Source: Oscillospiraceae bacterium (GTDB lineage Bacteria > Bacillota > Clostridia > Oscillospirales > Oscillospiraceae). From it: 64,000 nucleotides of DNA. The notes under the pieces are model-generated. The model saw nothing but the letters and a program-made list of their open reading frames with translations, searched no databases and was not told the origin of the DNA. The position numbers and the translations under genes were made by a program. Shown here one piece after another: positions 30,637 through 59,734 of the stretch (positions are counted from its first letter, which is position 1; every line of letters starts with the position of its first letter). The stretch is taken from contig JAETOQ010000004.1 in NCBI GenBank assembly GCA_021771635.1, forward strand, positions 1-64,000, in the 5' to 3' direction.

Positions 30637-31459
30637 CGGAAAGGCCCTGGCCGCCAAGGTCAAAGACCAGGTCCGGGAGGAGGCGGCCCAGCTGCCCCGG
30701 AGGCCCGGCCTGGCTGTGATCCTGGTGGGGGATGATCCCGCGTCCCAGGTCTATGTCCGGGGAAAGGAGAAGGACTGCGCCGCGTGCGGCATCGAGAGCT
30801 TCGAGCACCGTCTGCCCGCGGAGACGGCGCAGGAAGACCTGCTGGCACTGGTCAGGGAACTGAACGCGGACAGCGCGGTGGACGGTATTTTGGTGCAGCT
30901 GCCGCTGCCCGGGCATCTGAACGGGGAGCAGGTCATCAACGCCATCGTCCCGGACAAGGATGTGGACTGCTTCCACCCCTTCAACGTGGGGCGGATGGCC
31001 ATCGGCGAGCCGGTGTTCCTGCCCTGCACGCCCGCCGGCGTCCTGGAGATGCTGCGGGAATATGACATCCCCATCCGGGGGAAACGCTGTGTGGTGCTGG
31101 GGCGGAGCAACATCGTGGGCAAGCCCATGGCGATGCTGCTGACACAGCGCGACGGCACGGTGACCATCTGCCACTCCCGGACGGAGGACCTGGCGGAGAT
31201 CACCCGTGAGGCGGACATCCTGGTGTCCGCTGTGGGCCGGACCAAATTCGTCACAGCGGAGATGGTGAAGGACGGCGCCGTGGTCATCGATGTGGCCATG
31301 AACCGGGATGACCACGGAAAACTGTGCGGCGACGTGGATTTTGCGCCTGTGGAGCGGAAGGCCTCTTACATCACGCCGGTCCCCGGCGGCGTCGGCCCCA
31401 TGACGCGGGCGCTGCTGATGCGGAACATCCTGACGGCGGCCCGGAACCACCAGAGCTGA
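30620..31459 (+). CDS. folD: Methylenetetrahydrofolate dehydrogenase/cyclohydrolase
   Basis: RPGLAVILVGDDPASQVYVRGKEKDCAACGI, VDGILVQLPLPGHLN, VLGRSNIVGKPMAMLL, TPVPGGVGPMTRALLM. Confidence 0.97.
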   Translation: MAVRIDGKALAAKVKDQVREEAAQLPRRPGLAVILVGDDPASQVYVRGKEKDCAACGIESFEHRLPAETAQEDLLALVRELNADSAVDGILVQLPLPGHLNGEQVINAIVPDKDVDCFHPFNVGRMAIGEPVFLPCTPAGVLEMLREYDIPIRGKRCVVLGRSNIVGKPMAMLLTQRDGTVTICHSRTEDLAEITREADILVSAVGRTKFVTAEMVKDGAVVIDVAMNRDDHGKLCGDVDFAPVERKASYITPVPGGVGPMTRALLMRNILTAARNHQS

Positions 31460-31470
31460 CAACTATCATA

Positions 31471-31503
31471 AAAGCGCCGCAAGCTGATGGCTTGCGGCGT
31501 TTT
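31471..31503. terminator. Intrinsic terminator between folD and the PAP2 gene
   Basis: aaaagcgccgcaagctgatggcttgcggcgttttg. Confidence 0.8.
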
Positions 31504-31504
31504 G

Positions 31505-32209
31505 CTATTCGGGATTCTCCATGGGACGGGAATGGCGGCGGGGCCGGAGCGCGGCCAGAGGCGCATGGCGGTAAACAGGCAGTCCCACCGCGACAGCGAG
31601 GGCGGCTCCGCCGGCCACATCCAGGACCGTGTGCTGCTTGATGAACAGGGTGGACAGGCAGATCAGGGCCGCCAAAACCACCGTGCCCCAGCGCAGGGCC
31701 GGCTTCCGGCGGAACGGACAGCTGTCCCACACCGCCCAGGCGGCGCCGATGGAACCCACCACATGGACAGAGGGAAAAACATTGGTATTGGTGTCGATGC
31801 TGTACAGCCCGGCCACCCAGCGGGAGAAGAAGTTGTCCCGGGGCATGACCGGCGGGCGCAGGTCCTGGCCGTTGGGGATCAAAAACCAGATCAATTCACT
31901 GAGAAAGAAGGACACCGCCAGGAAGCACATATAGCGGCGAAACCCCTTGCTGTCCCGTACCAGCAGGGACAGGCCCACCGCCACCAGCAGGGGATACCAC
32001 ATGCAGTAGGGGATCACGAAAAGCTCCTGAAAGGGGATCAGACGGTCCAGGGGCAGCTGAGTGGCCCAGTAGCTGTGGGAGCCGTCAACCACCTGTTCCA
32101 GCAGCACGAAACTCACCAGATAGACCGGAAGCCAGAGAGCATATTTCAAATCACGCCAGGAAGCGGAGAGAGAAGCGGGAAGCCGCAAGACGATCACGTC
32201 TCCAATCAA
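31505..32209 (-). CDS. PAP2 superfamily phosphatase-like membrane protein
   Basis: NVFPSVHVVGSIGAAWAVW ... STLFIKQHTVLDVAGGAALAV. Confidence 0.88.
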   Translation of the reverse strand: MIGDVIVLRLPASLSASWRDLKYALWLPVYLVSFVLLEQVVDGSHSYWATQLPLDRLIPFQELFVIPYCMWYPLLVAVGLSLLVRDSKGFRRYMCFLAVSFFLSELIWFLIPNGQDLRPPVMPRDNFFSRWVAGLYSIDTNTNVFPSVHVVGSIGAAWAVWDSCPFRRKPALRWGTVVLAALICLSTLFIKQHTVLDVAGGAALAVAVGLPVYRHAPLAALRPRRHSRPMENPE

Positions 32210-57712: not shown

Positions 57713-57907
57713 TACAATTGGTATGAGCGGTGCATTAAGGAAGCCCATTCCGCAGACGTTGCGCCGGTGCGGCATGGGCGGTGGGAAGAAATTCGCAACG
57801 CTTATGGTGATCTGGAAGGCTGGTTGCACACCAACTGTGGGAGAGAAGTGAAATGCAAGGAAAAATACTGCCCCAACTGCGGCGCAAAGATGGATTTGGA
57901 TGGATGA
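57713..57907 (+). pseudogene. Phage-type zinc-ribbon protein, C-terminal fragment
   Basis: YNWYERCIKEAHSADVAPVRHGRWEEIRNAYGDLEGWLHTNCGREVKCKEKYCPNCGAKMDLDG; no clear start. Confidence 0.6.
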
Positions 57908-57912
57908 GGTGA

Positions 57913-58161
57913 AGTTACATCTACGGCGATTTAGAAACGGCACAGCGGCTTGTGGATAGATACCACGGAACAGGCGAAGTAATCATTAATCGGAAAGGTG
58001 CTTGGTCCAGCAAAGAGGTCATATTCCAGGCAGAAGTGATAGGCGTAGAAGTAGATCCTAAAAGCGGATTGGAAAGGGAAACCAGGCGCTTTACGATTCA
58101 TTACGGAAAAAATGGCACGCATGTTGTTCCCACAAAGGAGAATGAGAATGGATTACAGTGA
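57913..58161 (+). pseudogene. Ntox50-like toxin domain fragment (phage structural protein C-terminus)
   Basis: SYIYGDLETAQRLVDRYHGTGEVIINRKGAWSSKEVIFQAEVIGVEVDPKSGLERETRRFTIHYGKNGTHVVPTKENENGLQ. Confidence 0.7.
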
Positions 58162-58357
58162 GTTCTATAATGAAAATTCCGGGAAGAATGTCCGTGCTGA
58201 AATGACCGACGGCGAGGTCATTAGCGGGAAGTTGTACGGATATATCTCAGAGAAAGACAATGAACCAGATCCTGAAAGCATCATTGTGAAAAACTCAGAT
58301 GGAATGCTTACCGAGCTTTTCACCGATGAGATTGCGGGAATCGCTCTTGGTAACTAA
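58148..58357 (+). CDS. 69-aa protein downstream of the Ntox50-like fragment; candidate immunity protein
   Basis: MDYSEFYNENSGKNVRAEMTDGEVISGKLYGYISEKDNEPDPESIIVKNSDGMLTELFTDEIAGIALGN; aaggagaatgagaATG. Confidence 0.65.
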   Translation: MDYSEFYNENSGKNVRAEMTDGEVISGKLYGYISEKDNEPDPESIIVKNSDGMLTELFTDEIAGIALGN

Positions 58358-58428
58358 CAAGGAAGCTGTATGACAGACGAAGCTATCAAGTCCATTATAC
58401 ATAAGTGGGTACTGAATAAAATAAAAAT

Positions 58429-58455
58429 CCCTAGAGCCGTTGAAGCTCTAGGGGT
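58429..58455 (-). terminator. Terminator of the tRNA-Arg gene
   Basis: Minus strand: cccctagagcttcaacggctctagggatttttatttt. Confidence 0.8.
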
Positions 58456-58460
58456 TCTTT

Positions 58461-58537
58461 TGGTACGCCCGACTGGATTCGAACCAGCGGCCTTCAGAGT
58501 CGGAGTCTGACGCGCTATCCAACTGCGCCACGGGCGC
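58461..58537 (-). tRNA. tRNA-Arg (anticodon CCG), CCA encoded
   Basis: GCGCCCGTGGCGCAGTTGGATAGCGCGTCAGACTCCGACTCTGAAGGCCGCTGGTTCGAATCCAGTCGGGCGTACCA; loop CTCCGAC. Confidence 0.93.
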
Positions 58538-58917
58538 GTATCAAAACGGTATGAACTTGTGGGGAAGTGCTATTTTTCAAAATAGTGGTCAAATAGTAGT
58601 CAACGGCAAAGGGAATTTTCCTCTGCATTGGCTGTAAGCCACTGATTGCAAGGGGTTGCGCCGGTTCGCTGCGGATAGGACCTGAAACGTCGGAGTCTGA
58701 CGCGCTATCCAACTGCGCCACGGGCGCGTATCAAAACGGTATGAACTTGTAGGGAAGTGCTATTTTTGAAAATAGTGGTCAAATAGTAGTCAACGGCGAA
58801 GGAAAATTTCCTCTGCATTGGCTGGAAGCCACTGATTGCAAGGGGTTGCGCCGGTTCGCTGCGGATAGGACCTGAAACGTCGGAGTCTGACGCGCTATCC
58901 AACTGCGCCACGGGCGC
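58501..58917 (-). repeat. 190-bp tandem units carrying 5' half-tRNA-Arg copies
   Basis: cggagtctgacgcgctatccaactgcgccacgggcgc at 58501-58537, 58691-58727 and 58881-58917; near-identical 153-bp spacers. Confidence 0.92.
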
Positions 58918-59015
58918 ATAAACTCAAGATATGCTGTCTCACATATCTTTGCTTAGTATAGCAGAGTTTTGATTTGCTGTAAAGTGCTTTTCGGGAAAAA
59001 TTTTTACAAAAAAGA

Positions 59016-59098: not shown

Positions 59099-59734
59099 AT
59101 GGTTTTGAAGAAAGAGAACATCTCTGACGCTGTGATCCGCCGACTGCCCAGATATTATCGTCAATTGACAGATCTATGCAGCCGCGGAGTCATTCGGATA
59201 TCCTCCCATTCGCTGGGCCAGGAAATGAATATCACCGCCTCACAGATCCGGCAGGATTTCAGCTGCTTTGGCGAATTTGGACAGCAGGGATATGGCTATA
59301 ATGTGGAAGAGCTGCGCTCTGAGATCGGTCACATTTTAGGCGTGGACAACGATCACCATCTGGTCATGATCGGCGTGGGCAATTTAGGCCATGCGCTGCT
59401 GCAGGGATTCCTGTTTTCCCAGACCGGCTTTACGGTGGACGCCGCTTTCGATGTGTCTCCGGCAGTCATCGGCACCACGGTGAATGGCGTGCCGATCTAT
59501 TCCCTGAATGATTTGGAGACCTATATTCAGGAGCACAGTGTGGACGTGGTGGTGCTGACGATCCCCCAGTCTGTGGCGCAGGATACCGCCAACCGCCTGA
59601 TGAACCTGGGCATCAAGGGCTTCTGGAATTTTACAAATGTGGAATTGAGCAGCAGCGATCCGGATGTGAAATTTGAGAACATCCACTTTGCGGACAGCCT
59701 GCTGACACTCAGCTATCGGATCGCAAACCGCTGA
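59099..59734 (+). CDS. rex: Redox-sensing transcriptional repressor Rex
   Basis: ISDAVIRRLPRYYRQLTDLCSRGVIRISSHSLGQEMNITASQIRQDFSCFGEFGQQGYGYNVEEL; VMIGVGNLGHALL. Confidence 0.97.
   Translation: MVLKKENISDAVIRRLPRYYRQLTDLCSRGVIRISSHSLGQEMNITASQIRQDFSCFGEFGQQGYGYNVEELRSEIGHILGVDNDHHLVMIGVGNLGHALLQGFLFSQTGFTVDAAFDVSPAVIGTTVNGVPIYSLNDLETYIQEHSVDVVVLTIPQSVAQDTANRLMNLGIKGFWNFTNVELSSSDPDVKFENIHFADSLLTLSYRIANR

Follow-up and report, generated by a model that had tools for sequence, protein, structure and literature searches.

Why would a complete tRNA gene be preceded by two copies of its own 5' half? In the window (the whole 64,000-nucleotide stretch of Oscillospiraceae DNA that we analysed, labelled G000:C105; other labels starting with G or L are genomes and loci that were compared), ARAGORN reports one complete tRNA-Arg(CCG), at 58461–58537 on the minus strand. 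The first 39 nt of this gene are repeated exactly at 58689–58727 and at 58879–58917, with 190 bp from one start to the next, and with flanking bases the repeat grows to 42 nt (100% and 98%). An earlier note on this DNA described a 37-nt block every 190 bp; the repeat and its spacing hold, but the block is 39 nt long and the starts that were quoted were off by 2 nt. The 3' half is present solely in the copy that is last in transcription order, as the note had said. The two 190-nt units upstream of the tRNA are 97% identical to each other. A chance origin of the half-tRNA repeats is excluded.

We propose that the locus very probably consists of stacked left-end footprints, left by integrative mobilizable elements whose integration is tRNA-dependent. 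Comparison with related genomes reveals the element, its core, an imported tRNA, displaced 3' halves of host genes, and nesting, with no cognate integrase here. In the direction of transcription (all on the minus strand), the locus begins with the predicted promoter of the host tRNA gene, with a -35 box (TTTACA) at 58978–58983 and a -10 box (TATACT) at 58955–58960. The divergent rex gene lies beyond this promoter, at 59099–59734. The outermost 39-nt repeat (58879–58917), which we interpret as the 5' half of the original host gene, ends in the core ACTCCGAC (58879–58886), and it adjoins the host promoter and rex, as in relatives. The outer-unit spacer (58728–58878) would contain an element's left end (GTTTCAGG..), arm-type repeats, and a tRNA leader; the arm-type direct repeat GTTGACTACTATTTGACCACTATTTT is at 58769–58794, and such repeats are also found inside element right ends. 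The next repeat (58689–58727) is probably the 5' half of an imported tRNA that was split at its core (58689–58696), and similar nesting is seen elsewhere. The inner-unit spacer (58538–58688) has a left end, arm sites, and leader as well, with its arm-type direct repeat at 58579–58604. The two spacers are 96% identical, which bears out their description as near-identical, and both contain the motif gtggtcaaatagtagtcaac. The inner spacer is 98% identical to that of G013, which has a complete element downstream. Last come the functional tRNA-Arg(CCG), with its core at 58499–58506, and its intrinsic terminator (58423–58459; an inverted repeat, then a run of T).

Small gene remnants lie between the tRNA and the chromosomal genes, on the plus strand (57767–58357). 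Positions 57952–58161 match Ntox50 of Pfam (bacterial toxin 50, PF15542) in its C-terminal part, and positions 58112–58357 match phrog_1865 of PHROG. These remnants are probably debris of mobile DNA, although their origin is not proven. Elsewhere in the window, ARAGORN also calls a tRNA-Asp(atc) at 31426–31515; given its odd anticodon and length, this is probably a false positive.

We compared the unit to 86 genomes of the genus (the Dysosmobacter/Oscillibacter group) and to other Oscillospiraceae. Most of these are draft MAGs. At least one unit precedes the same tRNA-Arg(CCG) in 19 of the 86 genus genomes (counting the window's own), so the unit is not an assembly artefact that is peculiar to one MAG. 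Isolates are among the carriers of the unit, namely Oscillibacter valericigenes An860 and An890. Besides these 19 genomes, the genus has two further, decayed copies of the unit. Across eight genomes (G000, G007, G008, G013, G029, G089, G091, and G107), the unit is 94–99% identical while the adjacent rex is only about 80% identical, which implies that the unit moves horizontally, independently of the chromosome. Elsewhere in the genus the spacer is more diverged (mostly 73–78% identity, and lower in G061 and G085); these spacers retain a nearly equal length and the direct repeats GACTACTATTTGACYACTATT. A genus-wide search for the pattern ACTCCGAC followed by RTTTC found the units, one decayed unit, and four matches in unrelated coding DNA.

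What carries the unit? The earlier note had suggested comparing it to related genomes, and we found that in relatives it does flank integrase-bearing elements. In many genomes of the genus, two adjacent tyrosine recombinases (Int1 and Int2) are downstream of the unit and the tRNA and point towards the tRNA. In G013, profile searches matched the genes after the recombinases to relaxase, NikA/MobC, and AAA_25, and a Fic protein is encoded between the tRNA and the recombinases. Int1, Int2, relaxase, and MobC are thus all present in G013; the screen for secretion systems covered part of the gene set. There were no phage structural genes among the G013 proteins that were scanned, and a carrier with a relaxase and MobC/NikA does not fit a temperate phage. 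Judging from their genes and junctions, the carriers of the unit are probably integrative mobilizable elements, forming one family that inserts into the anticodon loop at the 8-bp core ACTCCGAC. The note had already proposed tyrosine-recombinase elements that enter there, and the tandem recombinases and the core in relatives agree with this. We also noticed that in many elements (L028, L029, L030, L088), a conserved gene starting with MSKYAGTQTEKNL comes right after the imported tRNA; by eye, it is rubrerythrin-like.

The ends of these elements show what happens to the host's gene. The sequence shared by attB and attP is just the 8-bp core, which is seen at left junctions, at right junctions, and at the tandem junction in L171. 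attL reads 5' half|GTTTC.. and attR reads ..CCTGATA|3' half. There is no tRNA at attL or attR, and ARAGORN reports solely the complete inner gene. The G061 element reaches over 15.5 kb, from the core of the first 5' half to a right end (...CGCCTGATG|ACTCCGAC) that is followed by the remaining 3' half of the host gene. G013 has its first right end at a distance of 13.5 kb; another, shorter stretch, with a right end of the same type, comes between it and the host 3' half. (Several left and right ends sit on separate contigs of draft MAGs.) The genus has about 20 displaced 3' halves, nearly all of which start exactly at the core, and they come after conserved right ends of the CCTGATA or TGTCAGAAA type. 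Between the split halves, both G061 and G013 have a complete tRNA-Arg(CCG), and the same architecture is found in other genera. The imported tRNA comes with a leader and a terminator, and about 150 bp separate it from the element's left end. In G061, the complete tRNA and the two remnants (5' and 3') all differ in allele, so the complete gene was brought in whole.

The note had instead proposed conventional islands, in which attP has a long block of identity to the tRNA and its 5' half regenerates the gene. Exact repeats of the 5' half would fit with this. However, the far end has a host 3' half and a 5' half is left upstream as well, so that both ends are broken. Furthermore, a complete tRNA is found inside the element's left end, and its alleles can be unlike those of both host halves. 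Regeneration from an identity block is contradicted by the attL and attR of G061 and G013, and we consider conventional islands to be extremely improbable.

There remained two models for the left boundary of the element. The element might start at the spacer (GTTTC..) and carry the whole tRNA, or it might start inside the complete tRNA, with the unit being separate. Close relatives of Int1 from other genera settle the boundary in favor of a start at the spacer. Eight of ten tRNA-bearing loci of these relatives have the arrangement 5' half, spacer, full tRNA-Arg(CCG). L171 has no 5' half: a right end with arm repeats and CGCCTGATA leads to ACTCCGAC and then to GTTTCAGACC, arm repeats, leader, and full tRNA. 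The arm-type repeats of the window's outer unit also flank this junction, on either side. L171 thus has two elements in tandem, with a junction that is equivalent to attP. Across 17 loci, the distances between spacers agree with the distances between Int1 proteins (Mantel r 0.68, p 0.0001). At the junctions, the scores of inverted repeats lean the same way (6–8 of 10 with the unit's left end versus 4–6 with the tRNA 3' half), but these are too weak to count by themselves. The stub would then be the left att arm of the element plus the 5' part of the element's own tRNA. L171 and L172 (both in G395) together have two complete tRNA-Arg(CCG) genes, which are about 28 kb apart in tandem elements.

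We also considered that the 190-bp unit might be a tiny non-autonomous cassette (a left att arm and a tRNA 5' half) that inserts at the core by itself, driven in trans by the integrases of other elements, which have a conventional 3' half. This could explain why near-identical units precede unrelated downstream flanks (in G000, G007, G008/G091, and G013/G089/G107) and why the elements in G083 and G064 lack the unit. But varied flanks are expected anyway if the second core serves elements for nesting or for exit. A cassette also seems inconsistent with the joint divergence of the spacer and Int1 across genera, with L171, where the unit's left end is joined to an element's right end with a full tRNA behind it, and with G061, where the complete tRNA is a matched allele that is unlike both host halves. 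We judge such a cassette to be quite improbable. The idea of an autonomous 190-bp cassette was dropped because of L171 and the congruence with Int1.

Element loci without an upstream unit are found in G083, G099, and L179; either the unit is sometimes lost, or some elements carry the 3' half only. In G083 (L088:18141–18260) and G064 (L087:10999–11100), the host promoter is fused to a leader that resembles the end of an element's spacer, with no 5' half in between, apparently because of a later deletion of the stub. Other elements may use the same gene. L026, L097, and L089 share a TTTGACTACTATTT repeat about 90 bp from the tRNA, past its terminator; this hints that tRNA-Arg(CCG) is used by a second kind of element, with a conventional 3' half. 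And in O. valericigenes An890 (L025:1–1046), the same tRNA is followed, 140 bp on, by a single tyrosine integrase that is unrelated (28% identity to Int1); this is a different element using the same tRNA gene.

How could a host survive the integration of such an element? We propose that the recombinase would join attP (right end, ACTCCGAC, GTTTC left end) to the host's only tRNA-Arg(CCG) gene, within its anticodon loop. The host gene would be destroyed: its promoter and 5' half would be kept upstream, and its 3' half would move to the far end. CGG is the commonest arginine codon (62/112 in six nearby ORFs), and we saw just one CCG tRNA gene in the window's assembly, so breaking this gene without replacing it should kill the host. 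The element's own tRNA-Arg(CCG), lying in the same orientation as the host gene, could replace it. Transcription from the host promoter would cross the inactive 5' half and the arm sites to reach the imported tRNA, and RNase P and the 3' enzymes would yield a normal tRNA from the read-through transcript.

Expression by read-through is the economical reading, because the host promoter is invariant and the spacers have none above chance. In 18 of the 19 unit-bearing genomes, the first 5' half is preceded by TTTACA-17-TATACT, unchanged in hexamers and spacing; the exception, G102, has the same -10 box and no -35 box at 17 nt in the stretch that was scanned. Within the spacers, promoter scores were no better than for shuffled sequences. 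The note had required either read-through or a promoter in the spacer, and of these we retain the dependence on read-through. We infer that the imported tRNA is made by read-through from the captured host promoter, with ordinary processing. The minimum-energy fold of the whole 488-nt read-through transcript does not contain a clean tRNA; the global fold lets an upstream half compete.

Our proposal also suggests how units could accumulate. Since the imported tRNA has the same core, a second element could insert into it, giving half, spacer, half, spacer, full tRNA. The bodies of the elements would be lost when the second core (or the shared 3' halves) recombines with attR, and what remains after each round would be an intact tRNA with one 190-bp unit. 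A circle formed by exit at the second core would have the junction right end|ACTCCGAC|TCTGAAGG. In G033 (G033C40) and G062 (G062C146), the DNA past the right end and the 3' half is the left cargo flank of a further family member, so in these genomes one element is inside another's tRNA. Two stacked units are also present in G029 (from the genus) and in G233 (from another genus); differences in their spacers or half-tRNA alleles indicate separate events. In G233 (L174:7154–7568), the two stacked units come with three different half or full tRNA alleles and one tRNA-Arg(CCG), and this genome reached the window's architecture independently. The elements, nesting, and stacks in relatives support the note's view that serial events and the loss of element bodies left att-bounded stubs.

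The window's assembly has no close relative of Int1 (best 28% identity) and no displaced 3' half apart from the functional gene, and therefore the window's history is read from its relatives. The window's inner spacer is closest to G013 (3 differences) and the outer spacer is closest to G007 (2 differences), while the two differ from each other at 6 sites. The window seems to have gone through integration and exit twice. An alternative that concerns solely the origin of the second unit is that one integration left one unit, which was later duplicated in tandem (190 bp) within this lineage. The units are equal in length and 97% identical, and the 39-bp repeats would favour unequal crossing-over. 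Yet the outer spacer has more differences from the inner spacer than from G007, and the stacks in G029 and G233 have different alleles. Monophyly of the window's two units is rejected by the AU test (p 0.013) but not by the KH or SH tests (p 0.10), using 151 bp. We think that a duplication is unlikely, though less so than the other alternatives above. We infer two independent rounds in the window's genome, as well as the route of exit. In G008 and G091, the unit and the tRNA are followed by the flank that is found beyond attR in G007; each has one unit, and the short contig piece that is available shows no recombinase. Similarly, the terminator of the window's tRNA is most similar to the flank beyond the right end (attR) in G092 and G089. 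These are what would be left after the second core or the 3' half recombined with attR. Site-specific and homologous exit are indistinguishable in these data.

We looked for free or phage-borne forms of the element. The core/left-end junction and two predicted attP patterns had no match in the viral contigs that were scanned, and a search for relatives with Int1 confirmed none there; neither approach found a free circular form. Int1 had no match in plasmids. In a phage collection, Int1 matched three records, and the best of these is an unannotated faecal contig with an attR-like end.

Overall, we slightly favour a broader interpretation, in which these elements of gut Oscillospiraceae repeatedly swap an essential single-copy tRNA gene for their own allele, rely on the captured host promoter, and offer that allele as the next landing site, and in which their exit leaves behind a chimeric tRNA as well as a fixed footprint (about 190 bp), with the locus thus keeping count of past invasions. 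If so, alleles of essential tRNAs can travel with mobile DNA. The replacement gene would have a simple route to expression, by staying downstream of the host promoter. It would also be a fresh target, which gives a reason for the stacking. The scar, in turn, would be readable.

The closest known system is tRNA-dependent lysogeny, as described for the phages Fionnbharth and Gaia (Guerrero-Bustamante and Hatfull 2024; PMC10865867). Both systems have a tyrosine integrase, an attB in a host tRNA gene, arm-type sites beside a core of 8–10 bp, no junction at which the tRNA is rebuilt, and an element-encoded tRNA of the same isotype. Those authors speculated that the element's tRNA gene could act as a second attB, and they asked how common tRNA-dependent lysogeny is beyond actinobacteriophages. 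Here the carriers bear a relaxase and two tandem recombinases and are from gut Bacillota, and nested integration and scars are seen in natural genomes. Also, the tRNA of Fionnbharth has its own promoter (PMC10865867), whereas the tRNA here, about 150 bp from the core, appears to use the host's. The family seems to work like tRNA-dependent lysogeny without being lysogeny, as the carrier is not a temperate phage. As described in PMC10865867, the prophage Lj965 of Lactobacillus johnsonii is similar in that the tRNA is not rebuilt, the prophage encodes the cognate tRNA, and the host belongs to the Bacillota; it differs in being a prophage and a single case.

Two other systems explain parts only. 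Islander-type tRNA islands (PMC4383910) share the tyrosine integrase, the crossover in the anticodon loop, the tRNA fragments at the ends, and the tandem arrays. But in those islands a fragment carried in attP restores the gene, while the unit-bearing elements have fragments at both ends, no restoration at either junction, and a whole imported gene. Island finders that assume fragment-based restoration will misplace the left end of such elements. In IME/CIME accretion (PMC5704250), mobilizable elements are also stacked at one att site with att-bounded remnants of decayed members, and some IMEs encode two tandem tyrosine recombinases. In contrast, accretion here is into the element's own functional tRNA, and the remnant is a fixed 190-bp att arm with a half tRNA. 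Replacing the tRNA gene that is broken was a strategy previously known mainly from phages of Actinobacteria. What is new is the relaxase-bearing carriers in Bacillota, the stacked scars, and, apparently, the capture of the host's promoter: a relaxase-bearing family in several genera of Oscillospiraceae appears to do likewise, at the only gene that reads the commonest arginine codon.
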